The position numbers were made by a program, and so were the translations under genes. A stretch of DNA of 64,000 nt. It comes from Candidatus Lindowbacteria bacterium RIFCSPLOWO2_12_FULL_62_27 (GTDB lineage: Bacteria > Lindowbacteria > 2-12-FULL-62-27). Positions within the stretch are counted from its first letter, which is position 1, and each line of letters starts with the position of its first letter. The stretch covers positions 1 through 64,000 of the forward strand of contig MFPR01000004.1 in NCBI GenBank assembly GCA_001784175.1, in the 5' to 3' direction. The notes below the pieces were generated by a model that was not told the origin of the DNA, did not search any database, and worked only from the letters and a program-made list of their open reading frames with translations. Positions 12,972 to 37,935 of this stretch are shown here, piece after piece.

Positions 12972-13172
12972 ATGCGCCGCATGGCGCTGTTCACGTTTGT
13001 GTTCGCCGTTGTCTCGCCGGCCTTCGGCTGTCCGCTCTGTTTCGGTTCAACGCCCTATGAGTTGGGTCTCTACTGGTCGGTGCTTTTTCTTCTTCCCGTG
13101 CCGTTTGTCATTGTCGGTGTGCTGATCGCATGGATTCGCCGTCAGTCTGACGGAAATATTAAGGAGGGATAA
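12972..13172 (+). CDS. small exported/membrane protein with CPLC motif
   Basis: 66 residues: a signal-like N-terminus ending at AFGCPLCFGS, then one membrane helix. The CPLC pair just after the signal suggests a redox or copper-binding role, perhaps in oxidase assembly. Unknown family. It starts 2 bp after the second subunit III and ends just before the napA ribosome-binding site. Confidence 0.6.
   Translation: MRRMALFTFVFAVVSPAFGCPLCFGSTPYELGLYWSVLFLLPVPFVIVGVLIAWIRRQSDGNIKEG
13161..13167 (+). promoter_or_regulatory. strong Shine-Dalgarno of napA
   Basis: AAGGAGG lies 8 bp before the napA ATG at 13176 and overlaps the 3' end of the small upstream gene. It is the strongest ribosome-binding site within the cox-nap gene string and marks where translation is re-initiated independently. 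Confidence 0.7.
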
Positions 13173-13175
13173 AAC

Positions 13176-16174: not shown

Positions 16175-16179
16175 AACAT

Positions 16180-17750: not shown

Positions 17751-18970
17751 TGCCAATGACTCTCATCTATTTCCTCCGGGACGCCTTGCGTGAAGCCACG
17801 AGCGGCGGGCGCAAATATCATCTCTGGATGGGCGCGCTCACGCTCGTCATGCTGACCGGCGCCTACGCCTACTCGATCCAGTTCCGCGAAGGGCTTGGCG
17901 TGACCGGCATGACCGACCACGTGAGCTGGGGTCTCTACATTTCGAACTTCACCTTTCTCGTCGGCGTCGCAGCGGCGGCCGTCATGCTCGTGATGCCGGC
18001 CTACATCCTGCACGACGTCGATTTCAAGCGCGCGGTGATGCTGGGCGAGGGCGTGGCGGTGTCGGCGGTCGTCATGTGCCTCTGTTTCGTGATGGCGGAC
18101 ATGGGCGGGCCGCACCGGGGATGGCATCTCATCCCGGTGATCGGCTATTTCAACTGGCCGCAGTCGATGCTGACGTGGGACGTGATCGTGCTGAACGGAT
18201 ACCTCGCGCTGAATCTGCTCATTCCATTTTACATCCTGTTTTCGCATTATCGAAACCGCGATCCCAATCCAACGCTCTACGTGCCGTTCGTGATCCTGTC
18301 GGTTTTCTGGGCGGTCAGCATTCATCTCGTGACCGCCTTCCTGTACGCGGGGCTCGTCGCCCGGCCGTTCTGGAACAGCGCCCTGATGGGGCCGCGGTTT
18401 CTCGCGTCCGCCTTCGCCGCGGGCCCGGCGCTCATCCTGCTGGCGCTCGCCGTCATCCGCTCGCAGACGTCCTTCGCGATCGAGGACACGACGATCCGGA
18501 AACTCAGCCTGGTCATCACGGTGGCCGCGCAGATCAATCTGATCATGCTGGGCTGCGAGGTCTTCAAGGAATTCTACTGGCCATCGGAACATAGCGCGAG
18601 CGCCGTCTACCTCTTTTTCGGCCACCACGGCCATCATGCGCTGAATCCATGGATATGGACGTCCATCGCGATGAATGTCGTCGCCACGGGGATCATGACC
18701 GTTCACTCGGCGCGGCGATGCCATCACCTCCTGTATCCCGCCTGCGTCCTGCTGTTCACGGCGATCTGGATCGAAAAGGGCATGGGACTCATCGTGCCGG
18801 GATTCATCCCCTCCCCGCTCGGCGAGCTGGTCGAATACATGCCGACATGGATCGAGGTCGCGGTGACGCTGGGCATCTGGGCGACCGGGCTCTTCGTCTT
18901 CACCGTGCTGGTCCGGGTCGCCCTGCCGATTGAACTTGGGCGCCTCCGGGCGCCGGGGACGAATCGATGA
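17750..18970 (+). CDS. NrfD/PsrC-family quinol-interacting membrane protein
   Basis: 406 residues with about nine to ten membrane helices and no Cys/His haem motifs, as expected for the NrfD/HybB family. It anchors the Fe-S subunit and binds quinol. It replaces the usual NapC or NapH quinol oxidase in this nap cluster. The start at 17750 shares its A with the previous stop; an ATG at 17756 is an alternative. The stop overlaps the kinase start. Confidence 0.85.
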   Translation: MPMTLIYFLRDALREATSGGRKYHLWMGALTLVMLTGAYAYSIQFREGLGVTGMTDHVSWGLYISNFTFLVGVAAAAVMLVMPAYILHDVDFKRAVMLGEGVAVSAVVMCLCFVMADMGGPHRGWHLIPVIGYFNWPQSMLTWDVIVLNGYLALNLLIPFYILFSHYRNRDPNPTLYVPFVILSVFWAVSIHLVTAFLYAGLVARPFWNSALMGPRFLASAFAAGPALILLALAVIRSQTSFAIEDTTIRKLSLVITVAAQINLIMLGCEVFKEFYWPSEHSASAVYLFFGHHGHHALNPWIWTSIAMNVVATGIMTVHSARRCHHLLYPACVLLFTAIWIEKGMGLIVPGFIPSPLGELVEYMPTWIEVAVTLGIWATGLFVFTVLVRVALPIELGRLRAPGTNR

Positions 18971-21758: not shown

Positions 21759-22238
21759 ATGGATCCCGGGCGCCGCCCCCGCGTCCTGTTTCTTTGCACG
21801 GGCAACTCGTGCCGGTCCCAGATCGCCGAGGGTCTCATGCGGTCCTTGTACGGCGACCGGTACGATGTGTTCAGCGCGGGGACCCGACCCGCCGCCGGCC
21901 ATGGATGGCCAAGTGCCGAAGGTGACAGGGATGTCAGACCTTCGGCCGCCGTCCATCCCTGGGCGGTGCGGGCCATGCGTGAAATCGACATCGACATTTC
22001 CGGCCGACGCGCAAAATCCATCGCCGATCTGCCGGGCGCGCCGTTTGATATCGTGGTCACGGTTTGCGACAACGCCCATCGAGAGTGCGTAAGCCTGCCG
22101 GCCCGGTCCCGCAGAATCCATTGGCCGATCCCGGACCCCGCCGCCGCCGGCGGCACGCAGCGGGAAATCGAATCGGCGTTCCGGCGCGCGCGCGAACTCA
22201 TCCGGGAGAATCTGCTGGCCGAATTCGGCAAACCTTGA
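21759..22238 (+). CDS. ArsC-like low-molecular-weight phosphatase-fold protein
   Basis: 159 residues. P-loop CTGNSCRSQ (C-x5-R) near residue 13 and the second redox cysteine pair CDNAHREC, as in thioredoxin-coupled arsenate reductases (ArsC of the LMW-PTP type). An insertion (AAGHGWPSAEGDRDVRPSAA) relative to typical ArsC sits after the first helix. It starts directly after the regulator stop and is followed by a Crp/Fnr gene, so it may act in regulation rather than detoxification. An arsenate reductase role is inferred from motifs. Confidence 0.75.
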   Translation: MDPGRRPRVLFLCTGNSCRSQIAEGLMRSLYGDRYDVFSAGTRPAAGHGWPSAEGDRDVRPSAAVHPWAVRAMREIDIDISGRRAKSIADLPGAPFDIVVTVCDNAHRECVSLPARSRRIHWPIPDPAAAGGTQREIESAFRRARELIRENLLAEFGKP

Positions 22239-22251
22239 TAGAAAAACCCGC

Positions 22252-22941
22252 ATGGCCGAGCTGACGAAGTTCTGGTACCTGAAACGGATCAATCTCTTTT
22301 CCGAGCTGACGCGCGAGGATATGCAGATGATGGCCGACATGACCACCATGTCCTCCTTTCCCGCCAAAGAGGTCCTCTATTTTCCGGGCGACCCCTCCGA
22401 TTCGGTCTTTCTGCTTAAAGAGGGCAACGTCAAAATTTCTCAGCTCACGCCGGACGGAAAAAAGCTGACGCTCGACATCCTCAATCCCGGGGAACTTTTC
22501 GGCGAGGCCGCGATCACGGGGCCGGACGCGGAACGGGACACGATGGCGGAGGCGCTCACGCCGGTGCATGTGTGCGTCGCGTCGAAAGACCGGTTCATGC
22601 AGTTTCTGGATCGCCGGCCGGCCCTCGTGATGCGGATCACCAAGCTCATGGGATTTCGATTGAAGAGAATCGAGACCCGTCTGCAGTCGCTCCTGTTCAA
22701 ATCCGTGCCGGCGCGCCTCGCGGAACTGATCCTCCGGCTGGCCGACGATTACGGCAAAGAGACGCCGAACGGCGTCGAGATCAGCCTGAAACTGACGCAT
22801 CAGGAATTGGCCGAGCTGATCGGATCCACCCGCGAAACCACCAGCGCCATCATGGGCCGGTTCCGGGACAAAAAACTGATCGACACCGACGGCCGCCGGA
22901 TTAGCGTTCTCAACCGGCAAAAGTTGTCCGCTATCGTCTGA
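22252..22941 (+). CDS. Crp/Fnr-family transcription regulator
   Basis: 229 residues: cyclic-nucleotide-binding-like beta barrel (FPAKEVLYFPGDPSDSVFLLKEG), dimer helix and winged helix-turn-helix (LTHQELAELIGSTRETTSAIM). There is no N-terminal Fe-S cysteine cluster, so it is not a classical oxygen-sensing FNR; Crp- or Dnr-like ligand sensing is possible. Last gene of the cox-nap-regulatory string; a strong hairpin follows. Confidence 0.9.
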   Translation: MAELTKFWYLKRINLFSELTREDMQMMADMTTMSSFPAKEVLYFPGDPSDSVFLLKEGNVKISQLTPDGKKLTLDILNPGELFGEAAITGPDAERDTMAEALTPVHVCVASKDRFMQFLDRRPALVMRITKLMGFRLKRIETRLQSLLFKSVPARLAELILRLADDYGKETPNGVEISLKLTHQELAELIGSTRETTSAIMGRFRDKKLIDTDGRRISVLNRQKLSAIV

Positions 22942-22953
22942 CGCCGCGTCTCT

Positions 22954-22989
22954 GACCGAAAACCGGCCGGGGCCGGCCGGTTTTCGGTC
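22954..22989 (+). terminator. strong hairpin after the Crp/Fnr gene
   Basis: Perfect 15-bp arms GACCGAAAACCGGCC and GGCCGGTTTTCGGTC around a GGGGCC loop, 12 bp after the stop. No T-run follows, so it may be a Rho-independent-like hairpin without a U-tract or an mRNA-stabilising structure. It separates the cox-nap string from the copper/idr string. Confidence 0.6.
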
Positions 22990-23108
22990 GGTCGTCCACC
23001 CCCTCCTCAAAATTTGCCATCCCTGTCCATTAAACTTTTCGCCTTCCGATTCAATCTGTTACGCTCGATTTTTCAGCGCGTCCCGGAGTATGCACGGCAT
23101 TTGCAACT

Positions 23109-23630
23109 ATGCGGGTGATGAGACAAGCGATGTTCGTTCTGGTCGTGGTTGTTCTGTTTGCCGTGGCGGGCGTTTGGGCGAATGGTCGGAGCGCCGACGA
23201 GCCGCAGACGCGCATCATTCACATGACGGCGCGGCAGTATGCGTTTGAGCCGTCGACGATTCGCGCGAATCTCGGCGATACGCTGGTGTTTCGATTGCAG
23301 TCGGCGGACGTCATGCACGGGTTTTATCTGGAGGGACATGATGTCGAGGCGGTCATCACACCGCAGAGTCCCTACGTCGAGCTTCGCCGGCCGTCGGAAC
23401 CGGATGCGCGGCCGCAAAAAGTGGAGGAAATAGTCGTGACGGCGGACCGGACGGGCAAGTTCCGTTACCGGTGCTCCCACACGTGCGGGACGATGCATCC
23501 ATTCATGATGGGCGAACTTGTCGTGGCGCCCAACCGCCTGTTTATCGCCTCAAGCTGGGGGATCGTCGGCCTGACGGCAGGCCTTGCGGGTACCGCCCTG
23601 TCGTCGAGGAAAAAACAAAATGGCGCGTAA
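23109..23630 (+). CDS. free-standing CuA-domain protein (COX2/NosZ-like), first copy
   Basis: 173 residues. An N-terminal anchor or signal, a cupredoxin domain with His70 (SADVMHGFY) and C122-x3-C126-x3-H130-x2-M133 (CSHTCGTMHPFM), then a C-terminal membrane helix. The ligands are those of a binuclear CuA site, yet there is no haem-copper oxidase beside it. It is probably a periplasmic electron carrier. First gene of the string leading to the peroxidases and the molybdoenzyme. Its end overlaps the ferritin-like gene by 11 bp. Confidence 0.82.
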   Translation: MRVMRQAMFVLVVVVLFAVAGVWANGRSADEPQTRIIHMTARQYAFEPSTIRANLGDTLVFRLQSADVMHGFYLEGHDVEAVITPQSPYVELRRPSEPDARPQKVEEIVVTADRTGKFRYRCSHTCGTMHPFMMGELVVAPNRLFIASSWGIVGLTAGLAGTALSSRKKQNGA

Positions 23631-24111
23631 ATTTTCGGATTTGACGCCGGAAGAAGTCTTGCGGGTCGCCATTGGGGTTGAGATTGCCAACGGGGAGAGG
23701 CTGCGGACATTTGCGGACATGTTTTCTCAACAGTCGCCGGAAGCGTCGTCTGTTTTCAAGGAAATGGCGGAGGAGGAGGATCAGCACAAGGCTGTGCTGG
23801 TGGCGAGATACGCGCAAATCTACGCCAAGCTGGCCGACCCATTGCCGGAATCCGAAATCTCGGATGTCCTGGAGGCCCACGATCTTCAGGATGCGGAGCA
23901 TTTTATTTTCGACGATATGGACGCCCGCGCGGCGCTCAAAGCGGTGTTGGCGGCGGAGAATGTCGCGATGGATTTTTATCGCCGCGCCGTTCCTACCGCC
24001 GCCACGGATGAGCTGCGCGCGGTTTATGCGGAACTGGCCGATGGCGAGGCGGACCACGTCCGGCGCGTTCAGGAGCGGTTGGCGGCGCAGGGGATGCGAG
24101 ATGCCGGATGA
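23620..24111 (+). CDS. ferritin-like diiron protein (rubrerythrin-type core)
   Basis: 163 residues, all-alpha. The full set of diiron ligands is visible: E21, E53-x2-H56 (EEEDQH), E113 and E143-x2-H146 (GEADH). No rubredoxin domain. Such proteins can reduce peroxide or oxidise iron. Here, next to two dihaem peroxidases, protection from peroxide is plausible. Start at 23620 overlaps the CuA gene; the stop overlaps the next start. Confidence 0.8.
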   Translation: MARKFSDLTPEEVLRVAIGVEIANGERLRTFADMFSQQSPEASSVFKEMAEEEDQHKAVLVARYAQIYAKLADPLPESEISDVLEAHDLQDAEHFIFDDMDARAALKAVLAAENVAMDFYRRAVPTAATDELRAVYAELADGEADHVRRVQERLAAQGMRDAG

Positions 24112-25589
24112 ATGCGCTCGAAACGATCGAGCGGCGGAGCGCCGCGGCGCCGACGGGATTACCCGAACCGTCCAAGCGCACGTTCCTGACCGGCCGGCGA
24201 ATGGAACTGTTCGAAAAATTCCCCCGGCTCTACTGGCTGGTCACGCGGCGGTGGTTTCAGTTTGCTGTCGTGGTCCCCAACCTGCTTTTCTTCTACGCGT
24301 TTCTGATCGCCGGCGTGTTTGGATCTCCGGTCGGCAACCGGAACATCATCATCATTTTTATCTGGATTCTCTGGTGGTTCGCGCTGATTACGGCGCTGGT
24401 GCCGTTCGCATCGCGAGTCTGGTGCACCGTGTGTCCCCTGCCGTTTTTCGGCGACTGGATCCAGCGCCGGGCGCTCATCAATGTCCGAACCGGCCGAACC
24501 TGCGGGCTTCAAAATCAAATGTACGGATTAAACAAGAAGTGGCCGAAGGCCCTGTCCAACATCTGGCTTCAGAACATCGCATTCCTGGGTCTTTGCACTT
24601 TTTCCGCCATGCTGGTGACCCGGCCGATCGTGACGGTGTGGGTGCTGGGCAGTCTCATCGTCCTTGCGGCGCTCATGGCGGGGGTCTTTCGCGGGCGAAC
24701 CTTCTGCAATTACGTTTGTCCCATCAGCGGATTTCTGTCGCTGTTTTCCATGACGTCGACGCTGGCGTTGCGGTCAAAGGATCTCGACGTGTGCGCCAAA
24801 TGCAAAACGAAGTCGTGCTCGGTCGGGAGCGACAAGGGCTGGGCCTGCCCCTGGGGCATCTACATGGGCAAACTCGATCGCAACAATTATTGCGGGCTGT
24901 GCATGGAATGCGTCAAATCCTGCCCCAACGACAACATCGGGTTGTTCCTCCGGCCGGCGATGTCCGACACGCGGATCAAGGGGTACGACGAATCCTGGAA
25001 GGCGTTCATCATGCTGACGCTCGCGGCCGCCTACTCGATCGTTTTGCTCGGGCCTTACGGAATCGTGAAGGACTTCGCGAACGTCGCCGAGGTCGGCGAC
25101 TGGAAGGGATTTGGAATCTATGCCGGCGGGCTGTGGTTGACGGCGCTGGCGGCGCTGCCGGCCGCGTTCGCCGCATGCGTGTGGATCGGACGGCGTCTTG
25201 CCGGTCGAAGCGACCTTGGGCAGAAAGAAATATTTCTGGGACTGAGTTACGTCTTCGTTCCTATGGGCCTTTTGGCGTGGATCGCGTTCAGCTTTCCCCT
25301 CATCATGATCAACGGCTCGTACATTCTGAACGTGATGTCGGATCCGATGGGTCGCGGCTGGGATTTGTTCAGGACGGCGCAAATTCACTGGTCGCCCATT
25401 CTGCCGGAATATGTCGGTTGCATCCAGGCGCCGCTCCTTTTCCTCGGCGCCTTCTACGCGATTCGCGCCGGATACAGGTTCGCGCTCGAAAAAACAGGGA
25501 CACCGGCCGTCGCGGTTCGGCTGGCCGCGCCCGTTTCGATTCTCGTTACGGCGATCACGCTCGCGTTTCTGAAGCTGTTTGTGGGATGA
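24108..25589 (+). CDS. NosR/NapH/CcoG-like polyferredoxin membrane protein
   Basis: 493 residues with about eight to ten membrane helices. Two Cys-Pro motifs face the cytoplasm (CTVCPLPFFG and CNYVCPISGF), and a ferredoxin-like segment has CAKCKTKSC, CPWG and CGLCMECVKSCP. This is the architecture of the C-terminal part of NosR and of NapH, which move electrons across or along the membrane. There is no FMN-binding domain. It is coupled to the ferritin-like gene and precedes a second CuA protein, so it may pass electrons to the copper proteins. Confidence 0.82.
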   Translation: MNALETIERRSAAAPTGLPEPSKRTFLTGRRMELFEKFPRLYWLVTRRWFQFAVVVPNLLFFYAFLIAGVFGSPVGNRNIIIIFIWILWWFALITALVPFASRVWCTVCPLPFFGDWIQRRALINVRTGRTCGLQNQMYGLNKKWPKALSNIWLQNIAFLGLCTFSAMLVTRPIVTVWVLGSLIVLAALMAGVFRGRTFCNYVCPISGFLSLFSMTSTLALRSKDLDVCAKCKTKSCSVGSDKGWACPWGIYMGKLDRNNYCGLCMECVKSCPNDNIGLFLRPAMSDTRIKGYDESWKAFIMLTLAAAYSIVLLGPYGIVKDFANVAEVGDWKGFGIYAGGLWLTALAALPAAFAACVWIGRRLAGRSDLGQKEIFLGLSYVFVPMGLLAWIAFSFPLIMINGSYILNVMSDPMGRGWDLFRTAQIHWSPILPEYVGCIQAPLLFLGAFYAIRAGYRFALEKTGTPAVAVRLAAPVSILVTAITLAFLKLFVG

Positions 25590-25668
25590 CGGCGACATGG
25601 ATGACGCCGTACCCGGAGTCGGGAATTCTGCGACACAGGGACGTGGAGCAGCCGACGGAGGGTGGCCC

Positions 25669-26172
25669 GTGGAAAAAATAGGAGTGATTCTGACGGTGGC
25701 GGTTTTGATTCTGACGCCGGTCGGCATGATCGCCGCGGATCGGCACTTTGCGTCGGGCGAACCGGCGGACGTGACGTTCACGCTGACGGGCGTGTCGGAC
25801 GGCGGCGTGTGGACGGAGGAGGCGGTCGTCGGACACAACTACTGGCGCCGGACGCCCAAGCCTGCGCGGCTCGTCGCGCGCGCGGGTCAGAAGGTGCGCA
25901 TCCGGCTCCAGAGCGCCGATGTGACGCACGGGTTCAGCATCCCGGACTTGGATGTCGGCCCCATCCTGATCGAACCGGGCCACGTCGTCGAAGCCGTGTT
26001 CACGCCGGAAGAGCCCGGCGAATATCTGTTTCAGTGCACCACGCGATGCGGCAAGTGCCATGAAGAAATGCTCGGCAGTCTCGTCGTTCTGGGCGAAGGC
26101 GAAACCCTTGAGAACTACCCGGGCGGCCTCATCAAGCCCAGAACCAAATGTCTGCTTCACGGGAGGTCGTGA
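25669..26172 (+). CDS. free-standing CuA-domain protein, second copy
   Basis: 167 residues from a GTG start at 25669, chosen because GGAGGGTG lies just upstream and the signal-anchor begins there; an ATG at 25597 would add a polar extension. Cupredoxin domain with His87 (SADVTHGFS) and C123-x3-C127-x3-H131-x2-M134 (CTTRCGKCHEEM), a CuA site. It is a paralogue of the protein at 23109 with matching SADVxHGF motif. Likely periplasmic electron transfer. Confidence 0.8.
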   Translation: MEKIGVILTVAVLILTPVGMIAADRHFASGEPADVTFTLTGVSDGGVWTEEAVVGHNYWRRTPKPARLVARAGQKVRIRLQSADVTHGFSIPDLDVGPILIEPGHVVEAVFTPEEPGEYLFQCTTRCGKCHEEMLGSLVVLGEGETLENYPGGLIKPRTKCLLHGRS

Positions 26173-26173
26173 A

Positions 26174-26890
26174 ATGAAAACCGGAAAATGGATCGGGCGC
26201 GCCGGTCTGGCCGGCATGATTTTGTTGTCTTTCAATGTGGCCCATGCCGTCGAAAACGGCGGGATCGTCTCCGGCGCCGTCACTTATAAGGGCAAAGGCC
26301 GGCCAGCGAATCTCAAGGTGGATCACGACCTCGAGGTCTGCGGCAAACATCCGATCCGGGACGAATCGCTCCTCGTGGCGGCGGACGGCGGATTGGCCAA
26401 CGCCGTGGTGTGGCTGGAAGGCGTTTCGGGAGGAAAAGAGATGCCGACATCGGAGGCGGCCATGGATCAGTCGGGATGCGCCTACGTTCCGCACGTGTTG
26501 GCCATCGGCGTCGGTCAAAAGATTCTTTTCAAGAACAGCGATGCGGTGCTTCACAATATCAACAGTTTTCCAAAGGAGAACCGGCCCTTGAACCTCTCAC
26601 TCCTCGCCGCCGGGCAGGGAAGGCCGCTCAAGCGTTCGTTTCCGCTGGCGGACGAAATCAAAGTGACCTGCGACGCGCACAAGTGGATGAGCGCGTGGAT
26701 CGTTGTTCGGGACAATCCGTATTTCGCGGTGACGGATTCTAAGGGCCGTTACAAAATCGCCGACATCCCGCCCGGCAAATACCGGCTGGTCGTTTGGCAC
26801 GAAACCGCCGGCCGGATGCAAAAAGATATTGTCGTACAACCCAAAAAGGCCGCGACGGAAAATCTTGCCCTGCCGGCGGCGAAAAGATGA
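26174..26890 (+). CDS. exported type-1 copper (plastocyanin-like) protein
   Basis: 238 residues with a signal peptide (cleavage near AHAVEN). An Ig/carboxypeptidase-regulatory-like fold carries the type-1 copper set H127 (LHNINS), C166, H169 and M172 (CDAHKWM). The C-terminal part is a carboxypeptidase-regulatory-like repeat (DSKGRYKIADIPPGKYRLVVWHE). It starts one base after the CuA gene's stop and overlaps the first peroxidase by 4 bp, so it may donate electrons to the peroxidases or the molybdoenzyme. Confidence 0.78.
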   Translation: MKTGKWIGRAGLAGMILLSFNVAHAVENGGIVSGAVTYKGKGRPANLKVDHDLEVCGKHPIRDESLLVAADGGLANAVVWLEGVSGGKEMPTSEAAMDQSGCAYVPHVLAIGVGQKILFKNSDAVLHNINSFPKENRPLNLSLLAAGQGRPLKRSFPLADEIKVTCDAHKWMSAWIVVRDNPYFAVTDSKGRYKIADIPPGKYRLVVWHETAGRMQKDIVVQPKKAATENLALPAAKR

Positions 26891-27999
26891 ACGGTCGGCG
26901 CCGGGGGTTTCTCTTGCTTTCCGTCACCGCGCTGATTTCGTGCGTCGCACTCGTCTGCGAACGGACGGGTTTCGGCGAGGAGCCGTACAAACTGGAGCCC
27001 CTGCCTCCGGCGCAAAGCGTAAACCCGGAACAGGCGGCGCTGGGTCGCCGGCTGTTTTTCGATCCGCGGCTTTCCGGCGACGGATCGATGTCCTGCGCCA
27101 CCTGCCACAAACCGGACGCCGGATGGGCGGACGGCCTGCCGCTGTCGATCGGGTACCCCGGTTCGCTCTACTTCCGAAACACGCCGACTGTGTTGAATGC
27201 GGCGCACGGCGCCTATTCGTATTGGGACGGCCGGCTCCCCGCCGCTGATCTGCCGACGGTCGTAAGGGATCATCTGACCGAAGCACATTTTCTGCAGTTG
27301 GACGGCCGGTTGGGGATCGAACGCCTTCGGCAGATTCCGGAATATGAGGAAGGATTTAAGAAAGCCTTCGGTGGCGTGCCGGGCTACGGTAAAATTCTGA
27401 ACGCCGTCGCCGCCTACCTCAAGACTCTGCGGTCCAAAAATATTCCGTTCGACCGATTCCTGGCCGGAGAGGAATCGGCATTATCGGCCGACGCCAAAAC
27501 CGGCATGGATCTATTCAAGGGCAGGGCCGGCTGTATCCGCTGTCACAGCGGCGGCATGCTGAGCGACGGCCGATTCCATGCCACAGGCGCGCCCGAAAAT
27601 CCGGACGTGTTCGCAACGCCCGAACGGCACATTACATTCCGTCGGTTTCTCAAAACGCTCGGCGTTTCCGATTACGCGACCCTGCGTGAGGATATCGGCC
27701 GCTCCGCCGTCACAAAGGAACCGCAGGACCGAAACGCGTTTCGGACGCCGACCTTGCGCGAACTCACGCGCACCGCGCCGTACATGCATAACGGGACTTT
27801 CAAATCGCTGGACGACGTAGTTGAGTTTTACAATCGCGGCGGGGGAAAAGAAAATCGCGCCGGACTCAAACCCCTCGGCCTTTCATCCCGGGAGAAAAAA
27901 GCCCTCGTCGAATTTCTGAAATCCTTGTCGGGCGACGAAGTCCTCGACGATCCCGGCCTCAGTCCCATGTATCAAGTCCGAACGCTGGGGAAAAACTAA
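26887..27999 (+). CDS. idrP1: dihaem cytochrome c peroxidase (MauG/CcpA family), IdrP-like
   Basis: 370 residues with a signal peptide and two haem motifs, CATCH (70-74) and CIRCH (216-220). PYMHNGTFKSLDDVVEFYN is the conserved peroxidase C-terminal signature. Reduces H2O2 with electrons from cytochrome c or cupredoxin. It is the first of two adjacent peroxidases directly before the Rieske/molybdopterin pair; two such genes accompany iodate reductase, where they are thought to remove H2O2 made during iodate reduction. The symbol rests on this context; which copy is P1 or P2 is arbitrary. Confidence 0.78.
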   Translation: MNGRRRGFLLLSVTALISCVALVCERTGFGEEPYKLEPLPPAQSVNPEQAALGRRLFFDPRLSGDGSMSCATCHKPDAGWADGLPLSIGYPGSLYFRNTPTVLNAAHGAYSYWDGRLPAADLPTVVRDHLTEAHFLQLDGRLGIERLRQIPEYEEGFKKAFGGVPGYGKILNAVAAYLKTLRSKNIPFDRFLAGEESALSADAKTGMDLFKGRAGCIRCHSGGMLSDGRFHATGAPENPDVFATPERHITFRRFLKTLGVSDYATLREDIGRSAVTKEPQDRNAFRTPTLRELTRTAPYMHNGTFKSLDDVVEFYNRGGGKENRAGLKPLGLSSREKKALVEFLKSLSGDEVLDDPGLSPMYQVRTLGKN

Positions 28000-28000
28000 G

Positions 28001-29314
28001 ATGGCGCAAACACGGAGGGGTCATAGCTGCAGTTTGTCCATTCACCTCCTCTCCCCCCGCAGGGGGGAGAGGATTGAGGTGAGGGGGGCAACTGGCGTTC
28101 GGCCACCCTCACCCCTACCCTCTCCCGCCGAAAGCGGGAGAGGGAGACAGAGTCAACAGCAACAGAGGGGTCATACTTGCAGTTTTGCAGTTTTGGCTGC
28201 GCTGGTGACAGTACTGATTGTCGGATGTGGGAAAGGCGCGGTTGAACCGCAACATGCTGTTGACCCGGAATTCCCGCCGCTGGCCGCGCTCGGGCCCGTC
28301 TCCGTGCCGCAGGACAACCCGATCACGCCGGCCAAGGTCAAACTCGGGCGGCTCCTCTTTTTCGATCAGCGCACGTCCGGCGACGTTTCGACCTCGTGTA
28401 AATCCTGCCACACGCCGGAACTCGGCTGGGGCGACGGCCAGGCCATCTCGCGGGGATATCCGGGCACGCGGCATTGGCGCAACTCTCAGACCGTCGTCAA
28501 CTCGGCCTATCTCACCAAATTGTTCTGGGGCGGCGAGGTCACGTCGCTGGAGAGCCAGGCCAACAGCGCCATCACGGGCAATCTCGCCGGAAACGGCGAC
28601 CCCGTGATGATCGAAGAGCGGCTGGCGCAGATTCCCGAATACGTCGCATTGTTCAAAGAAGTCTTCGGCGTCGACCAGCCGACGTACAATCTTGCGCTGA
28701 AGGCCATCGCAACATTCGAGCGCGCCGAGGTCGTGGACAACAACACGCCGTTCGACCGATACATGCGCGGAGACAAAAACGCCATTTCGCCGTCGGCCGT
28801 GCGGGGAAAGACATTGTTTGAAGGAAAGGCCAACTGTATCCGCTGCCATAACGGGGCGCTGCTATCAGACGAAAATTATCACAACTTGGGAGTTCCGCCG
28901 CCGCCGCAGTTCGAAAAGGACGTCCTCATGCAGGTGTCCCTCCGATACCAGCACTACAGCCGCGGCGTGCCGGAAGAGGTGTACCTGAAGGCCGACCGGG
29001 ATCTGGGTCTGTACTACACAACGAAGCGCGAAGAGGACAAAGGCCGGTTGCGCACACCGCCGCTTCGATACATCCGATACACGGCGCCCTACATGCACAA
29101 CGGCGTGTTCGCGACGTTGGAGAAGGTCGTCGATTTCTATAACAAAGGCGGCGGAGACGACCCGGCCAGGAGCATACTTCTCGCGCCGCTGAATCTCACA
29201 CCGCCTGAAAAAGCGGATCTTCTCGAATTCCTCCAGACCTTGAGCGGCCCGGAAATTCTCATGGAACCGCCGGCCATGCCGGAATACAAACCCATTGAAG
29301 TGGGGAGGCGATAA
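28001..29314 (+). CDS. idrP2: dihaem cytochrome c peroxidase, IdrP-like, with repeat inserted in its signal peptide
   Basis: 437 residues as open. The mature domain from about residue 85 has haem motifs CKSCH (133-137) and a later CIRCH, and PYMHNGVFATLEKVVDFYN. Residues about 11-60 are encoded by a 150-bp in-frame dispersed repeat; without it the N-terminus would read as a normal lipoprotein signal (MAQTRRGHSCSFAV... LIVGC). With it, the hydrophobic core and lipobox (Cys76) are displaced 50 residues inward, so export may be altered. Starts 1 bp after the first peroxidase. Second half of the paired peroxidases seen in iodate reductase clusters. Confidence 0.78.
   Translation: MAQTRRGHSCSLSIHLLSPRRGERIEVRGATGVRPPSPLPSPAESGRGRQSQQQQRGHTCSFAVLAALVTVLIVGCGKGAVEPQHAVDPEFPPLAALGPVSVPQDNPITPAKVKLGRLLFFDQRTSGDVSTSCKSCHTPELGWGDGQAISRGYPGTRHWRNSQTVVNSAYLTKLFWGGEVTSLESQANSAITGNLAGNGDPVMIEERLAQIPEYVALFKEVFGVDQPTYNLALKAIATFERAEVVDNNTPFDRYMRGDKNAISPSAVRGKTLFEGKANCIRCHNGALLSDENYHNLGVPPPPQFEKDVLMQVSLRYQHYSRGVPEEVYLKADRDLGLYYTTKREEDKGRLRTPPLRYIRYTAPYMHNGVFATLEKVVDFYNKGGGDDPARSILLAPLNLTPPEKADLLEFLQTLSGPEILMEPPAMPEYKPIEVGRR
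28036..28185 (+). repeat. 150-bp dispersed repeat inserted in frame, with ~21-bp flanking duplication
   Basis: Two copies of GAGGGGTCATA..TGCAGTTT (28015-28035 and 28165-28185; 19 of 21 identical) lie exactly 150 bp apart and bracket the double-hairpin repeat also found at 8918. The length is a multiple of three and no stop is created in the peroxidase frame. This looks like insertion with target duplication. Confidence 0.8.
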
Positions 29315-29317
29315 CGG

Positions 29318-29869
29318 ATGGACGTCCAGACACCCTGCGTGAACCGCCGCCAATTTTTGCTGGCCGGCGCAGTCTCGGCGATGACGGTAACGCTTGGCTC
29401 GCTCTTCAAAGGCCGCGTGTTCGCCGCGGACGAGCACAAAACCGCGACCGTCTACGGATTTGAAAAGAAATGGATCGCCAAACTTTCGGAAATCAAAACT
29501 GGCGACACGATCGTGTTCCTGTTTCCGCGCGAAGACGCCCATTCGCTCTGCACGCTCTACAAACTGGGCGTCCGGGCCGGAGGCGGCATCGGGCCGGATC
29601 AGGACATCGTCGCTTTCAGCGATCTGTGCACCCACATGGGCGGGCTTTTGCGCGGCAACGTTGATTTCAAATCCGCGGTTGCCGGACCGTGCCCCATGCA
29701 CCTGACGACGTTCGACCTGCGGCGGCACGGCATGGTCGTGAGCGGCCAAGCCACGCAGAACCTGCCGCAGATTGTGCTCGAAACCGACGGCAACGATGTT
29801 TTCGCCGCCGGCGTCGTAGGACTCCTCTACGGCCACCATAATAATATGGAGAGGCGGGACCGGGCATGA
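29318..29869 (+). CDS. idrB: Rieske subunit of AioB/IdrB type
   Basis: 183 residues. Tat signal (NRRQFLLAGA). The Rieske motifs are CTHMGG and CPMHLTTFD (C-x-H, C-x2-H), and the sequence ends in the GQATQNLPQI pattern of arsenite-oxidase-type small subunits. It transfers electrons between the molybdenum subunit and the periplasmic carriers. GGGGAGG precedes the ATG at 29318. Its stop overlaps the start of the catalytic subunit. AioB of an arsenite oxidase is the alternative. Confidence 0.85.
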   Translation: MDVQTPCVNRRQFLLAGAVSAMTVTLGSLFKGRVFAADEHKTATVYGFEKKWIAKLSEIKTGDTIVFLFPREDAHSLCTLYKLGVRAGGGIGPDQDIVAFSDLCTHMGGLLRGNVDFKSAVAGPCPMHLTTFDLRRHGMVVSGQATQNLPQIVLETDGNDVFAAGVVGLLYGHHNNMERRDRA

Positions 29870-32583
29870 CGGCAAAATACGAACCGAAGGACCACGTGCC
29901 TCTGCCTCCGAAAGATGCCAGCGTTCATACGACCGCGTGCGATTACTGCATCGTCGGCTGCGGCTACAAGGCCTTTGTCTGGCCCAAAGGACGTGAGGGT
30001 GGGCCTGGCAAAGCCGAAAACGCGCTCGGGATCGATTTCCCCGTTCCGGCGCTCTCAGGCCGATGGCCCAGTCCCAATCAGCACAACGAGTGTCTGGTCG
30101 GCGGCAAGAAACACAACGTGATCGTCCTGCCCGACCCAGATGCGACCGTGGTCAACCGCGGCGGCAATCACTCGATCCGCGGCGGATGCCTCGCGCAGAA
30201 AGTCTACAACCCCGACGGCCCGACCGCGGACCGGCTCAAGACGCCGCAGATCCGGGTGAACGGAACGCTCGTTCCGGTTTCGTGGGATGCGGCCTTTGAC
30301 ATCATGGCCGGCGTTTCACGGCACGTTCTGTCGAACTTCGGCGAGTCGGCGTGGGCGATGAAGACATATTCCTACCAGTATTTCGAAAACACCTATGCCA
30401 TCTCAAAACTGGCGTTCGAGTCCATCCAGACACCGGCCTATTCGGAGCACGACAAGCCTGGACCCGGCAACGACACGGCCGGCGTTGATGACTCGGGGAT
30501 CGTGACGTTCAGCGCGTCGTATCACGACTGGGAGCAGGCGGCCGTTTTATTTATTTCCGGCACCGATCCCTACGAGACGAAAACGATCATTTTCACGGAA
30601 TGGATGATGAAAGGCGCGCCGAACAAGATCATCATGGTCAATCCCAGGCGCACGGCCGGCGCGGCCTACGCCGAAAAAACCGGCGGGCTGTATCTGCCGA
30701 TCATTCCCGGCACTGACACGATTCTGCATCTGGCGCTGGCGCGGATCATTCTCGAAAACGGCTGGGAGGACCGCGAGTTCATCGATCACTGGATCGCGAC
30801 CAAATGGGAGATCGATTCCGGGTTCGGCCGCGGCCCCCGCAATACGCCGGTGGAGTGGCGGACGACCTGGGACAAAATCGGCGTCACCGATTTCGCCGCC
30901 TACAAAGAATGGCTGCTCGCCCAGCCGTATTCGGACTTGAACACCGCGGCGCAACTGACGGGCATCCCCGCGAAAAAAATCCGGGCGACGGCCGAACTCA
31001 TCGCCAAACCCATCGGCGGCGTACACCCGAAAACGTCTTTTGGATTCGAAAAGGGAAATTACTGGAGCAATAATTATCTGAATACCGCGTCCTTCGCCGC
31101 GCTGGCGCTCCTCTGTGGCGCCGGCAACCGTCCCGGCCGCGTGATTTCGCGTCTCGGCGGCCACCAGCGCGGCTGGGCCTCGAACGCCGCGTCTTATCCG
31201 CGCATCCAGTCGCCGAACAAATACCAGGGCCGGCGAAAACAGGAGATCGATCTGGACCGATGGGTCGAGGCCGGGCATGTCCGCTTTGCCTACGTCATCG
31301 GCACCACGTGGCTTCAGGCAATGGCCGCCAGCCAGGAACTGGCGCGGACATTCCAAAAACTTACGCGGGATAATCCTCATCAGGTTTCGTCATCGGACGC
31401 ATCTTCGGCGGTGGACGCGCTGAAAAAACGCGCCGACTCCGGCGGCATGGTCGTGGTCCATCAGGACATCTATCCGGTTGATCCGATCGCCACCGAGTAC
31501 GCGGACCTCGTGTTGCCGGCGGCCACGTGGGGCGAGGAGGATTTCTCGAGGGCCAACGGCGAGCGGCGGATCAGGCTCTATTCGAAATTTTGCGACGCGC
31601 CGGGCGAGGCCAAACCGGACTGGTGGATCATCTCGGGTTTCGCGCGGAAAATGGGGTTCAAGGATTACGACTGGAAAGATTCGAATCAGGTGTTCGAGGA
31701 GGGCGCGCGATTTTCCCGCGGCGGCGTCCTCAATTATCATCCGCTGGTCTGGTACGCCAAACAAATCGGCATGCGGGGGCATGACGTCCTGCGGGCGATG
31801 GGCACGCGAGGGATTCAGGGGCCGGTTCGGTTTAGAGAGAAACCGACGGAAAACGCCGAGTATCTGGACTACGCCGGATTTTTTTCCTCGCCCAAACGGC
31901 GCGGCATGATCGTCGGCACCAAACGCCTGCACGACCCCGATCACGATTTCGGCGCGCCGGAAGGCCCGACCGTTCACCAAAAATGGCTTTCGGCGTTCGG
32001 CTCGCACAGCGGCAAGGCGCTTCTGCACAAGACGCCGTGGGATTTGTATTCAGATTTTTTTGAACGGATCACGCCCCGCGAGGACGAGTTGTGGGTGACA
32101 AGCGGCCGGATCAACGAGCGCTGGCAGTCAGCATTCGACGATTCTCGGCGGCCGTACATCATGCAGCGCTGGCCCGGGCAATTCGTCGAAGTCCACTCGG
32201 AGGACGCCCAAAAACGCGGGATCGAAAGCGGCGACGAGGTGCTGATCTGGAGCGACGACGTGCTGATTCAAACCGGCGGATTCGTCGCCACCAAAGACGG
32301 CGAGATGACGTACACGGAACTGGAGAAGGCCGGCCGGATCCGGATCGGGCACGGCGAATTCAAAGGCGTGGCGATCGTCACCGATGACATCAGGCCCGGC
32401 GTGGTCTTCGCCGATTTTCTCTGGCCGGCCGCGCCCGCCAACAGCGTCGTCCACCGCGTTCCCGATCCGATCACACTCCGATACCGGTTCAAACTTGGCA
32501 AAGGCAGGATCAAAAAAATCGGCGAATCGCCCTACAAGAAAACGTTCGATGAAATGAGTTTCGCCCCGAGGACGGTGATGTAA
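29866..32583 (+). CDS. idrA: AioA-family molybdopterin oxidoreductase, probable iodate reductase catalytic subunit
   Basis: 905 residues. The [3Fe-4S] signature C25-x2-C28-x3-C32-x70-S103 reproduces the exact spacing known for arsenite oxidase AioA, so the family is certain. No Cys, SeCys or Ser appears where NapA has its Mo ligand, as in AioA. RLGGH (429-433) matches the AioA substrate-site Arg/His pair, but the segment near 200-210 (GNDTAGVDDSG) does not look like the AioA site as I remember it. No Tat signal; it is exported with IdrB. The length exceeds typical AioA (about 825-850). Two peroxidases upstream point to iodate reductase. Arsenite oxidase remains the alternative because arsenic genes lie elsewhere in the window. 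Confidence 0.72.
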   Translation: MTAKYEPKDHVPLPPKDASVHTTACDYCIVGCGYKAFVWPKGREGGPGKAENALGIDFPVPALSGRWPSPNQHNECLVGGKKHNVIVLPDPDATVVNRGGNHSIRGGCLAQKVYNPDGPTADRLKTPQIRVNGTLVPVSWDAAFDIMAGVSRHVLSNFGESAWAMKTYSYQYFENTYAISKLAFESIQTPAYSEHDKPGPGNDTAGVDDSGIVTFSASYHDWEQAAVLFISGTDPYETKTIIFTEWMMKGAPNKIIMVNPRRTAGAAYAEKTGGLYLPIIPGTDTILHLALARIILENGWEDREFIDHWIATKWEIDSGFGRGPRNTPVEWRTTWDKIGVTDFAAYKEWLLAQPYSDLNTAAQLTGIPAKKIRATAELIAKPIGGVHPKTSFGFEKGNYWSNNYLNTASFAALALLCGAGNRPGRVISRLGGHQRGWASNAASYPRIQSPNKYQGRRKQEIDLDRWVEAGHVRFAYVIGTTWLQAMAASQELARTFQKLTRDNPHQVSSSDASSAVDALKKRADSGGMVVVHQDIYPVDPIATEYADLVLPAATWGEEDFSRANGERRIRLYSKFCDAPGEAKPDWWIISGFARKMGFKDYDWKDSNQVFEEGARFSRGGVLNYHPLVWYAKQIGMRGHDVLRAMGTRGIQGPVRFREKPTENAEYLDYAGFFSSPKRRGMIVGTKRLHDPDHDFGAPEGPTVHQKWLSAFGSHSGKALLHKTPWDLYSDFFERITPREDELWVTSGRINERWQSAFDDSRRPYIMQRWPGQFVEVHSEDAQKRGIESGDEVLIWSDDVLIQTGGFVATKDGEMTYTELEKAGRIRIGHGEFKGVAIVTDDIRPGVVFADFLWPAAPANSVVHRVPDPITLRYRFKLGKGRIKKIGESPYKKTFDEMSFAPRTVM

Positions 32584-33414
32584 ATGGGAGAGCACCGTCG
32601 ATCTTTCCGCGCCGCTCTTATTCTTTCGTCGTCGCTGATGTGGGCGGCCTGCGGCTCTCCACCAAAATCCATCGCTCCGTCGGGACCGCCGATTTGGGAG
32701 GAACTGGCGCAGGCGCGCCCGGTGGGTGAGTCTTCCGGTTCGTCGGCGCATGGCCGGGCGGCCTACGAGGCGCACTGCGCCGCCTGTCACGGCATTCGCG
32801 GGGACGGCGGAGGGCCGGCGGCGCAATTTCTCGCCACGCCGCCGCGCGATTTCACCAGGGGCGTCTTCCGGTTTCGGACGACCGTCGGCGAAGGCATGCC
32901 GCAGGATGAGGATTTGTTCCGCAGTGTCACTGCCGGTTTTTCCGCCTACGGGATGCCGTCCTTCGCGTATCTGCCGGCCGGAGAACGCTGGGCGCTGGTC
33001 GATTACGTCAAAACTTTTTATCCGAAGTGGGACGCGTTCGGTGTCGGAGAAACTCTGGCCATCGGCGCGGAGCCGCCGCGGTTGCCCGGCTGGGAAGAGC
33101 GCGGCCGGCGACTCTATGAAACCAAATTCGACTGCAAAAAATGCCATGGCCTCACCGGGCATGGCGACGGGCCATCGGCGAAGGACCTCAAGGACGAACA
33201 CGGCCGAAGGATACGTCCCCGCGATTACTCGCTGGGACCGGTGTTTCGCAAATCCGGATGGCGCCCGCGCGACACCGTGCGCGTCATGGCCACCGGATTG
33301 CCCGGCACGCCCATGACGGGTTACTTCGAACAATTGAACGATCCAAACGACCTCACGGAATTCTGGGAGGCCGCGTGGTACGTCGAGCGGCTGGATCAAT
33401 CGACCCGGAGATGA
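32584..33414 (+). CDS. dihaem cytochrome c lipoprotein
   Basis: 276 residues. Lipoprotein signal (LMWAACGSP). Two class-I cytochrome c domains: CAACHGIRG with PPRDFTRG and MPQDEDLF/GMPSF, then CKKCHGLTG with RDYSLG and TGLPGTPM. It follows the molybdoenzyme by 0 bp and is probably its periplasmic electron partner. It resembles the N-terminal half of the gene at 61039, which has the same two-domain layout. Last gene of the copper/idr string. Confidence 0.85.
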   Translation: MGEHRRSFRAALILSSSLMWAACGSPPKSIAPSGPPIWEELAQARPVGESSGSSAHGRAAYEAHCAACHGIRGDGGGPAAQFLATPPRDFTRGVFRFRTTVGEGMPQDEDLFRSVTAGFSAYGMPSFAYLPAGERWALVDYVKTFYPKWDAFGVGETLAIGAEPPRLPGWEERGRRLYETKFDCKKCHGLTGHGDGPSAKDLKDEHGRRIRPRDYSLGPVFRKSGWRPRDTVRVMATGLPGTPMTGYFEQLNDPNDLTEFWEAAWYVERLDQSTRR

Positions 33415-34302: not shown

Positions 34303-36597
34303 ATGGAGAGCAAATCGCCTGACACGCCTGTTTCGAGACAGAAAAGCCATGAGAAGTCCAAGCCGGGGAATAAGGATCGGCCTTGGACCGCGGTTCTGGC
34401 CGTCCTCCTTTTTCTGGCCGCCTTTTTCGGCGGATTCGAAATCATCGAACGGGTTTACCTTCGGGATGTTTCGGAGATGTGGCTCCATAAAATGCATCTA
34501 TTTCGCGGGATCCTGGCGAGCGTGGCGACTGGTGGGCTGGTCGCCTATCTTCTGGAGGTTCGATTCCGGTCCGGGTCGACGGCGCGGCGCTTCGCCAACG
34601 ATGTCAACCCCTGGATCCACCGGCTTCAGGAAGTCAGCATTCGGACGAAGCTCATCGTTCCGTTCATCCTCCTCTCCACGCTGCCGGCCGCTGTTGTCGG
34701 CTATTATGCCATCGCTCATACCGGAAATACGTTGAAGAACGAAATTGTCAGCCAGGTCCAAAGCGAGGCTGTTGCCCGGGCGAACGATATGCAGGAATTT
34801 TTGCTTCAGGTGGAGACGGACGCGCGATTTCTGGCGAGTCTGGCGCCCATCCGGTCATTGGCCGGCCACAGGTCGGAGGCGTCCCGGTGCAAGGCCGAGG
34901 ATGCTCTGCTTGTTTTTTCACAGGGCCGTCGCGCGTTTTATCAAGTCCGGTATCTTGATAGCCGCGGAATGGAAATGGTCCGATTGAATCTGAAGGACGG
35001 CCGGCCCCTGCCGGTTCCGGCGGAGTTGCTTCAAGACAAATCGGACCGCTATTATTTTCGTGAAGGGATGGAGGCAAACGCAGGCGGAGTCTATGCGTCG
35101 CCGATGGACCTGAACATGGAATTCGGCCGGATCGAATCCCCGCCGAATCCGGTTGTCCGCTATGCGTCCCCTGTTCTGGACGAGCGCGGCGAGAAGGCCG
35201 GCCTCATCGTGATCAATCTCTTCGCCGAACATCTCTTTTCCGTTCTCAGGCCTTTTCCCAACCAAACGCGGATCATGATCCTGGACCGGTCGGGAGTTGT
35301 TCTGGCGTCCTCTCCCGAACAGCCGACAGGCGCAACCCGGATTCTGTTTCAGCCGGGACTAACTCTTTCGGAACTGGGATTATCCGGCGCATCCCGTCGG
35401 ATTCTCGCCGACACCGCCGGCATCCTCGAATCCAACGAATCGTTCATGATTCATGCGCCCATCCGGCGCACGGCGGATGAGGCGTGGGCAGGATGGATTT
35501 TCGCGGCCAAGACGCCTTTTTCCGCGGTGATTGCGCCTCTGCATCATCAAAAAGCGCTTTTGTATCTGGCGCTCAGCGCGATGATCGTCCTTGCGTGTCT
35601 GGTCGGCCTGCTCATCGGGCATTACATCACGCGTCCAATCATCCGGCTGGCGCGGGGGATGGAGGAGATCGCCGCGGGGCAATTTGACCTGCGCCTGAAC
35701 ATCGCCACCGGCGACGAGATCGAATTTCTGGCCCAGCAGGCCAACCGGATGGCGGAGAAACTCGGCGAGTCCGACCGCCGGCTTCGGAATTGGAACGACG
35801 AACTCCAAAAAGAGGTGTCCCGCCAGACGGAGGAAATCAGGCGGTCGCAGGAACATCTGGCAAGCGCCCAACATCTCGCCGCCATGGGCCAGTTCGCCGC
35901 CGGTGTCGCTCACGAGATCGGCAATCCGCTTGGCGCCATGAAACTCGCCGCACAGGCCATCGACGCCACAGCGGTCGCGTGGCCCCGCCCGGCCGATCCT
36001 GACCGTTGCAAAATCTGCGAGCCGGTTGTCGCGCATCCACGCATTCACACACTGGCCATGCGGCTGGTTGAAGAAATCGACCGGCTCGCCGGCATCGTCC
36101 GGAACTTCAACGCCTTCGCCCGGCCCGCGCCGACCCGGCTTGCGCCGTGCCAGCTTGAGGATATGATTGGGCCGCTGGTTGATCTGTCGAAAAAGACGGC
36201 GGAAAAGGCGGGCATCCGGATTGAAACCGACATTTCTCCCCGCCTTCCGGAAATCCTCGTCGATTTTCAGCAGGCGCGGCAGATTATTCTGAATCTCATT
36301 CTGAACGCCATTCAGGCGCAGCCCGGCGGCGGCCGGATCCTCGTGAGCGCCGCGCCGAACGGCGGGAACAAAGTGGCGGTCCATGTCAGCGACATGGGCG
36401 GAGGTATTCGGCCGGAGGACCGCGAAAAGATTTTTCAACCGTTTTACACGACACGCGCGGACGGCACAGGCCTGGGGCTTTCGGTCGCCCGGCGTCTGGC
36501 GGCGCAAAACAACGCCGAGTTGTACCTCGGCCATGCCAATGGCTGGAATACGGTGTTCACGCTGGAACTCAGGGCAATGGCGGGGGCGGCGACTTAG
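34303..36597 (+). CDS. membrane histidine kinase with extracytoplasmic Cache-like sensor
   Basis: 764 residues. Two N-terminal helices flank FEIIERVYLRD...LHKMHLFRG (about 45-69), a module shared with the kinase at 18967. A further helix (about 116-135) leads to a periplasmic double-Cache-like domain (to about 395), a membrane helix, a HAMP domain (ITRPIIRLARGMEEI), a coiled coil, H537 (GVAHEIGNPLGAM) and an ATPase domain (DMGGGI, GTGLGLSV). A CKIC pair follows the His box (about 571). Paired with the regulator 0 bp downstream. Confidence 0.88.
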   Translation: MESKSPDTPVSRQKSHEKSKPGNKDRPWTAVLAVLLFLAAFFGGFEIIERVYLRDVSEMWLHKMHLFRGILASVATGGLVAYLLEVRFRSGSTARRFANDVNPWIHRLQEVSIRTKLIVPFILLSTLPAAVVGYYAIAHTGNTLKNEIVSQVQSEAVARANDMQEFLLQVETDARFLASLAPIRSLAGHRSEASRCKAEDALLVFSQGRRAFYQVRYLDSRGMEMVRLNLKDGRPLPVPAELLQDKSDRYYFREGMEANAGGVYASPMDLNMEFGRIESPPNPVVRYASPVLDERGEKAGLIVINLFAEHLFSVLRPFPNQTRIMILDRSGVVLASSPEQPTGATRILFQPGLTLSELGLSGASRRILADTAGILESNESFMIHAPIRRTADEAWAGWIFAAKTPFSAVIAPLHHQKALLYLALSAMIVLACLVGLLIGHYITRPIIRLARGMEEIAAGQFDLRLNIATGDEIEFLAQQANRMAEKLGESDRRLRNWNDELQKEVSRQTEEIRRSQEHLASAQHLAAMGQFAAGVAHEIGNPLGAMKLAAQAIDATAVAWPRPADPDRCKICEPVVAHPRIHTLAMRLVEEIDRLAGIVRNFNAFARPAPTRLAPCQLEDMIGPLVDLSKKTAEKAGIRIETDISPRLPEILVDFQQARQIILNLILNAIQAQPGGGRILVSAAPNGGNKVAVHVSDMGGGIRPEDREKIFQPFYTTRADGTGLGLSVARRLAAQNNAELYLGHANGWNTVFTLELRAMAGAAT

Positions 36598-37935
36598 ATG
36601 GCGCGGATTCTGGTGATCGAAGACGACAAGAATCTCCGGCTCACCATCGACGATGTGTTGACGGGCGCAGGTCAGCACGTGACCGCCGCGGTCAGCGCCG
36701 GCGATGGGTGGGATCGCTTTTCCGCCGCTCACTTCGATCTTGCGCTCCTGGACATCCGCCTGCCGGATGGCAGCGGCGTTGATCTTTTCTCGAAGATCCG
36801 TTCTGTCGATCCAAATATGCCGGTGATCCTGATGACGGCCTTCCCCGACGCGTCGGCGGCCGTTGCCGCCATGAAAGCCGGCGCGACCGACTACCTAATC
36901 AAACCCTTCGATCTCGACGAGCTTCTCGTGACCGTCTCCAAGGCGCTCGAAGTGTCGCAACTCAAACACCTGGTGGCGTCCCAGCGCCGGCTCGCGGGCG
37001 CCGCCGCGTCGGAGATCATCGGCGAATCTGAAGTGGTCCGGCAAGTGCGGGATCTGATCTCGCGCGTCGCGCCGGCCTCTAACACCACCGTTCTCGTTCT
37101 CGGCGAAACCGGCGTGGGCAAGGAACTCGTCGCGAGCAGCATCCACGCGCAAAGTCCCCGCGCCGCCAAATCCATCATCCGGCTCAACTGCAGCGCCATC
37201 CCGGAAAATCTGCTCGAAGCGGAATTGTTCGGCGTCGAACGTGGCGCGTTCACGGACGCCAGGGAATCCCGCGAGGGACTCCTTCAGATGGCCGACGGCG
37301 GCACGCTCTACCTCGACGAAATCGGCGACATGTCTCTGGCGCTTCAACCCAAACTTCTTCGAGTCATTGAAGACAAAACCTATCGGAGGCTCGGCGGCCG
37401 GCGGGAATTTGTCGCCGATATCCGCATTCTGGCCTCCACCAACCACGACCTCGCGGCGGCCGTCGCGGCCGGGCGATTCCGCGAGGACCTCTATTATCGC
37501 CTCAAAGTCATGGTGATTCACGTGCCGCCGCTTAAAGCCAGGGGAAATGACATCCTCCTTCTGGCGCGGCATTTCCTCCGCCGATTCGGGAGCGAGCGCG
37601 GGCGGACGAATTTCAGCCTGTCTCCCGAGACCGAACAACGGCTTCTCTCCTATCACTGGCCGGGCAACGTCCGGGAACTCCGCAATCTTCTCGAACGCGC
37701 CGTCCTCCTGGCGCCATCCGATACCATCACGCCCGACCTCATTGTTCTTGACACGCCCACGCTCGGCCCGCCCGATAACGGCAACGCGTCGTTATCGGCC
37801 GCCGAAAAGCGCCACATCTTTTCGGTCCTCGCCCGCGCCGGCGGCAACAAAAGCCGCGCCGCCGAAGTGCTGGGCATCTCGCGTTCGACATTGAAAGAAA
37901 AACTGAAGGAGTACGGCGGGGAAATGATTTTGTGA
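36598..37935 (+). CDS. NtrC-family response regulator with altered GAFTGA loop
   Basis: 445 residues. Receiver with D52 (LLDIRLPDGSG), AAA+ domain with Walker A GETGVGKE (169-176) and a Fis-type helix-turn-helix (EVLGISRSTLKEKLKEYG). The sigma-54 contact loop reads GAFTDA (216-221) instead of GAFTGA. That loop change often weakens or abolishes sigma-54 activation in NtrC-type proteins, so this regulator may act differently. Starts right after the kinase stop. Confidence 0.9.
   Translation: MARILVIEDDKNLRLTIDDVLTGAGQHVTAAVSAGDGWDRFSAAHFDLALLDIRLPDGSGVDLFSKIRSVDPNMPVILMTAFPDASAAVAAMKAGATDYLIKPFDLDELLVTVSKALEVSQLKHLVASQRRLAGAAASEIIGESEVVRQVRDLISRVAPASNTTVLVLGETGVGKELVASSIHAQSPRAAKSIIRLNCSAIPENLLEAELFGVERGAFTDARESREGLLQMADGGTLYLDEIGDMSLALQPKLLRVIEDKTYRRLGGRREFVADIRILASTNHDLAAAVAAGRFREDLYYRLKVMVIHVPPLKARGNDILLLARHFLRRFGSERGRTNFSLSPETEQRLLSYHWPGNVRELRNLLERAVLLAPSDTITPDLIVLDTPTLGPPDNGNASLSAAEKRHIFSVLARAGGNKSRAAEVLGISRSTLKEKLKEYGGEMIL

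Follow-up and report, generated by a model that had tools for sequence, protein, structure and literature searches.

Gene organization of the locus

The window analyzed here is a 64,000-nucleotide stretch from the genome of Candidatus Lindowbacteria bacterium RIFCSPLOWO2_12_FULL_62_27 (4.39 Mb, 44 contigs). Positions 26887–32583 contain four intact, co-directional and nearly gapless reading frames, which are assigned here as idrP2, idrP1, idrB and idrA. A cytochrome c gene lies directly 3′ of idrA, and a PIN-domain gene precedes a sensor kinase/sigma-54 regulator pair at 34303–37935 (Table 1). The four idr genes adjoin one another in the order P2-P1-B-A printed for idr clusters (PMC10989891).

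Table 1. Features of the idr locus, with positions in the window.
Feature	Position	Strand	Characteristics
idrP2-position dihaem peroxidase, 370 aa	26887..27999	+	CATCH and CIRCH haem motifs; N-terminal export signal
idrP1-position dihaem peroxidase	28001..29314	+	CKSCH and CIRCH; signal peptide ends in lipobox-like LIVGC
Dispersed REP/MITE-like element	28036..28153	.	In frame in idrP1 signal-peptide region
idrB, Rieske [2Fe-2S] subunit, 183 aa	29318..29869	+	Tat motif RRQF; C-T-H...C-P-M-H
idrA, molybdopterin catalytic subunit, 905 aa	29866..32583	+	C-x2-C-x3-C-x70-S
c-type cytochrome, two CxxCH motifs	32584..33414	+	Cytochrome_CBB3, 60.8 bits
dCache/HAMP sensor histidine kinase, 764 aa	34303..36597	+	Domain matches; most similar to idr-linked kinases
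sigma-54 response regulator, 445 aa	36598..37935	+	Best seven matches idr-linked

Both peroxidases match the Pfam family CCP_MauG (134 bits for idrP2 and 149 bits for idrP1), contain two CxxCH motifs each, and have di-haem cytochrome c peroxidases as their best solved relatives. IdrP2 shares 41–62% sequence identity with the first peroxidase of idr clusters, and IdrP1 up to 70% with its Planctomycetota counterparts. IdrB scores 112.5 bits against the NCBIfam model TIGR02694 (cut-off 95.65) and IdrA 428 bits against TIGR02693 (cut-off 359), and the best PDB matches of IdrA and IdrB are the large and small (AioB) subunits, respectively, of the NT-26 arsenite oxidase. Each of these models covers Idr as well as Aio proteins, so that their names do not tell the two apart; the large subunit of an Azonexus plasmid idr cluster is annotated with the same arsenite-oxidase name. 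The [3Fe-4S] motif of IdrA (C25-x2-C28-x3-C32-x70-S103) is identical in spacing to that of AioA (Cys21-X2-Cys24-X3-Cys28-X70-Ser99; PMC3758308). As read from the sequence, export signals are present on IdrP1 and IdrP2, the Tat motif is carried by IdrB, and none is seen on IdrA.

An earlier, sequence-only reading of the window had described four intact frames, an AioA-type [3Fe-4S] signature, and an AioB-like Rieske subunit and two dihaem peroxidases ahead of the large subunit. All four frames are open over 26887–32583, and the motif spacing and model scores given above agree with the remainder of that description. Two refinements are the gene order, idrP2-idrP1-idrB-idrA, and the course of the first ~55 codons of idrP1, which traverse an inserted repeat element.

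Repeat insertion in idrP1

The inserted element, ~105–115 bp in length with two strong GC-rich hairpins, separates the idrP1 ATG (28001) from the hydrophobic stretch of the signal, and the export signal sits behind it. The element is flanked by 24-bp near-direct repeats (28012–28035 and 28162–28185; 88%), has 42 hits genome-wide at E≤1e-5, and is present in a second copy in the window at 8969–9093. Several Planctomycetota idrP1 genes, including the counterpart on contig JACQVV010000029 (locus L034), start directly with a lipobox signal, and therefore the start of the window idrP1 looks secondarily altered.

The insertion may impair the export of IdrP1. A stronger form of this proposal, in which the repeat disrupts expression or export and the operon is decaying, with a pathway that no longer functions in this strain, would be in keeping with two strong hairpins between a start codon and its signal peptide. 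However, the idrP1 frame stays open through the insertion and offers alternative in-frame starts downstream, the remaining genes are intact, and the cofactor residues are invariant, so that decay of the operon is very unlikely.

Family placement of IdrA

A tree of 46 sequences (35 Idr, nine AioA and two NapA) was computed with a quick method. The 35 Idr sequences, among them the window IdrA, form one side of a branch with an SH-aLRT support of 100; the window protein does not fall in a clade with NT-26 and other AioA. Such a tree had been suggested as a check in the earlier reading, and it places the 905-residue protein inside the IdrA clade, apart from AioA. The window IdrA is next to a Planctomycetota protein (support 85) within a Planctomycetota group, followed by a Dehalococcoidia protein. 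Several rows on the Aio side are long, and the uncertainties of the tree concern that side and not the Idr clade. The link from the tree to the strains with experimentally proven IdrA (SCT, IR-12 and DN11), none of which could be identified by name among its rows, runs through Zoogloeaceae/Rhodocyclales relatives, the group that includes IR-12 and DN11. To our knowledge, the deep clade of the window protein (Planctomycetota, Dehalococcoidia and NC10) has no cultured, tested member.

Pairwise identities follow the same pattern. The window IdrA shares 63–71% identity with its Planctomycetota, Dehalococcoidia and NC10 relatives (71% with the nearest, from Planctomycetota), 49–58% with proteobacterial idr clusters (about 56–58% with Zoogloeaceae IdrA), and 27–30% with AioA. 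A tblastn search against plasmids returned Azonexus, Thiothrix and Vibrio at 49–55%, with all other matches at ≤30%; in the Azonexus and Vibrio relatives, two peroxidase genes and a Rieske gene lie ahead of the large subunit, and the Thiothrix stretch is truncated where its record ends. With one genome scanned per species, 80 relatives were identified at 49–70%.

Substrate-site residues

The AioA substrate residues His195, Glu203, Arg419 and His423 (PMC3758308) align with H195, D203, R429 and H433 of the window IdrA. The residue comparison proposed in the sequence-only reading therefore finds three of the four AioA residues kept and Glu203 replaced by Asp, rather than the full AioA set. The equivalents of His195, Arg419 and His423 show no variation across the 84 Idr-type sequences, and almost all AioA have them as well; these three residues hence do not discriminate between the two. 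Position 203 is Glu in 9/9 AioA; among the 84 Idr-type sequences it is Ser in 58, Asp in 22, Ala in two and Glu in two, such that the glutamate is lost in 82. The residue after His195 (position 196) is Asp in 84/84 Idr and Asn in 9/9 AioA. A His-Asp pair, usually without Glu at position 203, thus provides a simple sequence test for distinguishing IdrA from AioA, which the NCBIfam models name alike.

Position 199 aligns with the Cys of NapA that ligates Mo. It is Ser in 67 of the 84 Idr sequences and Ala in most AioA, and is Gly in the window IdrA and its deep-clade relatives. IdrA has been reported to have no amino-acid ligand to Mo (PMC10100899); Ser199 is a candidate ligand. It is conceivable, though unlikely, that the deep branch, with Gly199/Asp203 instead of the Ser/Ser of most marine IdrA, differs in Mo coordination or substrate range. 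If so, the Idr family would comprise two mechanistic types, with the host of the window in the less known one.

The same differences in the Mo-site loop, in a clade for which we know of no tested member, could also be taken to mean that an Idr-clade enzyme here acts mainly on another oxyanion, such as bromate or chlorate, with iodate as a secondary substrate. We regard this as highly improbable, since the four-gene set and the type of regulator are conserved (see below), and Asp203 also occurs in the beta-proteobacterial Azonexus/Zoogloeaceae-type IdrA, the group of the tested strains.

Conservation of the gene neighborhood

The order peroxidase-peroxidase-Rieske-large subunit is found in 69 of the 80 named-genome relatives; of the remaining 11, nine are truncated at the end of a contig and two are explained otherwise. 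These relatives were selected for their resemblance to the window IdrA, so that the linkage applies within the Idr clade and not to the whole superfamily. One Planctomycetaceae MAG locus (L036/L149) was considered as an IdrA without peroxidases and rejected as such, as its contig carries P2-P1-B on the same strand as idrA, 12.4 kb further upstream. In a Sulfuritalea MAG (L064, 4730–7432), the idr peroxidases are fused into a 901-residue frame with four CxxCH motifs. No peroxidase was found within the 3–4 kb flanks of nine AioA loci, consistent with the earlier remark that arsenite oxidases normally lack them. The linkage to peroxidases, a further point on which that reading had proposed a check, therefore holds among the relatives of IdrA.

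A c-type cytochrome is also found 3′ of idrA in Azonexus, and a gene 53% identical to that of the window occupies the same place in L034. The window cytochrome c is probably the electron donor to IdrAB. The kinase/sigma-54 pair matches those of the Azonexus, Thiothrix and Zoogloeaceae idr loci, and the idr-linked kinases that best match the window kinase are mostly 680–766 aa long. For the sigma-54 regulator, the top seven of the gathered matches are idr-linked without exception (43–49%, 371–407 bits), followed at lower scores by the other sigma-54 regulator of the window (38%, 277 bits) and AioR-type regulators (32–41%, 152–263 bits). The tested iodate respirer Azoarcus DN11 has the same gene-type pair beside idr (PMC10149662). 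These similarities suggest that the kinase and the sigma-54 protein are probably the regulators of idr.

Other redox genes are present in the window. Directly upstream of idr, the block at 22252–26890 encodes a Crp-type regulator, a cupredoxin, a rubrerythrin-like protein, a large NapH-like membrane ferredoxin, a second, CoxB-like cupredoxin, and a protein with a carboxypeptidase-regulatory-like domain; it possibly has a role in electron transfer. Cytochrome c oxidase genes, followed by napA (13176–15500), a NapB-like gene and a gene for a DsrP/NrfD-type membrane protein, are located at 9131–18970, and a molybdopterin-oxidoreductase gene of ~1216 codons begins near 63887 and runs off the end of the window.

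A further reading, which we consider very unlikely, is an arsenite oxidase (AioBA) that stands beside two peroxidases by chance and serves arsenite detoxification or respiration. It can point to scores above the cut-offs of two models that do not separate Idr, to the three kept substrate residues, and to arsenic genes within the window (an acr3-arsC fusion, ArsC-like and ArsM-like). Against it stand the tree position and low identity to AioA, the Asp at position 203 and the His-Asp pair, the conserved peroxidase linkage, a regulator nearer to idr-linked than to AioR-type proteins, and the distance of the arsenic genes from the cluster (~16–24 kb on its downstream side, 5 kb on its upstream side). 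The arsenic genes themselves are an ArsC-Acr3 fusion (arsenate reductase and arsenite efflux pump) at 48295–49815 on the minus strand, an ArsC-like gene at 21759–22238 and a radical-SAM/ArsM-like fusion at 56780–59314. They were rejected as evidence for Aio, being too distant and too common; Acr3 and ArsC genes are widespread.

Proposed function

In its genes and their motifs, in the clade to which its IdrA belongs and in the linkage kept among relatives, the locus corresponds to an idr cluster, and the earlier Idr-type interpretation is supported by the tree, residue 203 and the peroxidase linkage. We conclude with high confidence that idrP2-idrP1-idrB-idrA form a dissimilatory iodate reductase operon, which has a cytochrome c and a two-component regulator of its own. 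By analogy with the studied strains, the substrate would be iodate, which would also control expression, and the electron path and the role of the peroxidases would be as in those strains; the host is thus predicted to reduce iodate.

The Tat signal of IdrB would carry folded IdrA along to the periplasm. In the scheme derived from the studied strains (PMC8692401), IdrAB would there take electrons from a c-type cytochrome and reduce iodate to HIO. HIO would then disproportionate toward iodide, and IdrP1 and IdrP2 would reduce or detoxify H2O2 or other oxidants arising in the process. Experiments on idr in other strains include the knockout of idrA in Denitromonas IR-12 (PMC8692401; also reviewed in PMC10149662), while Azoarcus DN11 was studied by induction and proteomics (PMC10149662).

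The sole Cld-family protein in the genome is encoded among haem-biosynthesis-like genes and best matches a HemQ model, below the cut-off. A role for chlorite dismutase was reportedly once proposed for iodate reduction in Pseudomonas SCT. Such a role is not needed here, and the Cld-dependent model was not adopted for this host, as its only Cld-family gene looks like a haem-synthesis enzyme.

Distribution and significance

No IdrA match was found in the two other genomes of the host phylum searched (81% and 88% complete), and in the family of the genome carrying locus L045, idr is present in seven of 151 sampled genomes. This patchy occurrence fits horizontal transfer, as proposed previously (PMC8692401). 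Planctomycetaceae, Rokubacteria, Lindowbacteria and NC10 have already been listed as carriers of idr (PMC8692401); clusters from deep-branching phyla were reported in 2021, and this kind of cluster is well described (PMC8692401, PMC10989891). The window locus is clearly a standard four-gene iodate reductase operon in an unusual host, a known system and not a new kind. It extends iodate reduction, as predicted from genes, to a phylum with only three genomes in the set searched. It also contributes a complete operon, cytochrome and regulator included, to the deep and sparsely sampled region of the IdrA tree, which has served as an argument that iodate respiration predates arsenite oxidation (PMC10100899).

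Comparison with known systems

The window shares the four genes P2-P1-B-A with the idrABP1P2 clusters of Denitromonas IR-12, Pseudomonas SCT and Azoarcus DN11 (PMC8692401, PMC10149662, PMC10989891), as well as dihaem peroxidases and a Tat signal confined to the Rieske subunit. A c-type cytochrome is also found nearby in SCT, and a sigma-54 regulator and histidine kinase in DN11. In contrast to the studied strains, the regulators of the window are downstream instead of upstream, and idrP1 contains a repeat.

The nearest clusters in the tree are those of Planctomycetota (L034, and L035 in strain K23_9, CP036526), with 67–71% identity and the same gene order. L034 further resembles the window in the cytochrome c gene after idrA and the lipoprotein-type IdrP1 signal. 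These clusters belong to another phylum and, unlike the window, have no adjoining regulators in the stretch examined. Methylomirabilota idr clusters (Ca. Methylomirabilis iodofontis; NC10 bacterium RIFCSPLOWO2_12_FULL_66_18, L041) also have the order P2-P1-B-A (PMC10989891), and two NC10 proteins (L040 and L041), 63% identical to the window IdrA, form a neighboring but separate branch. AioBA of NT-26 and Thermus shares the fold family, the [3Fe-4S] and Rieske motifs and three of the four substrate residues; it differs from the window system in its ~30% identity, absence of peroxidases, Glu203 and His-Asn pair, and position outside the Idr clade.
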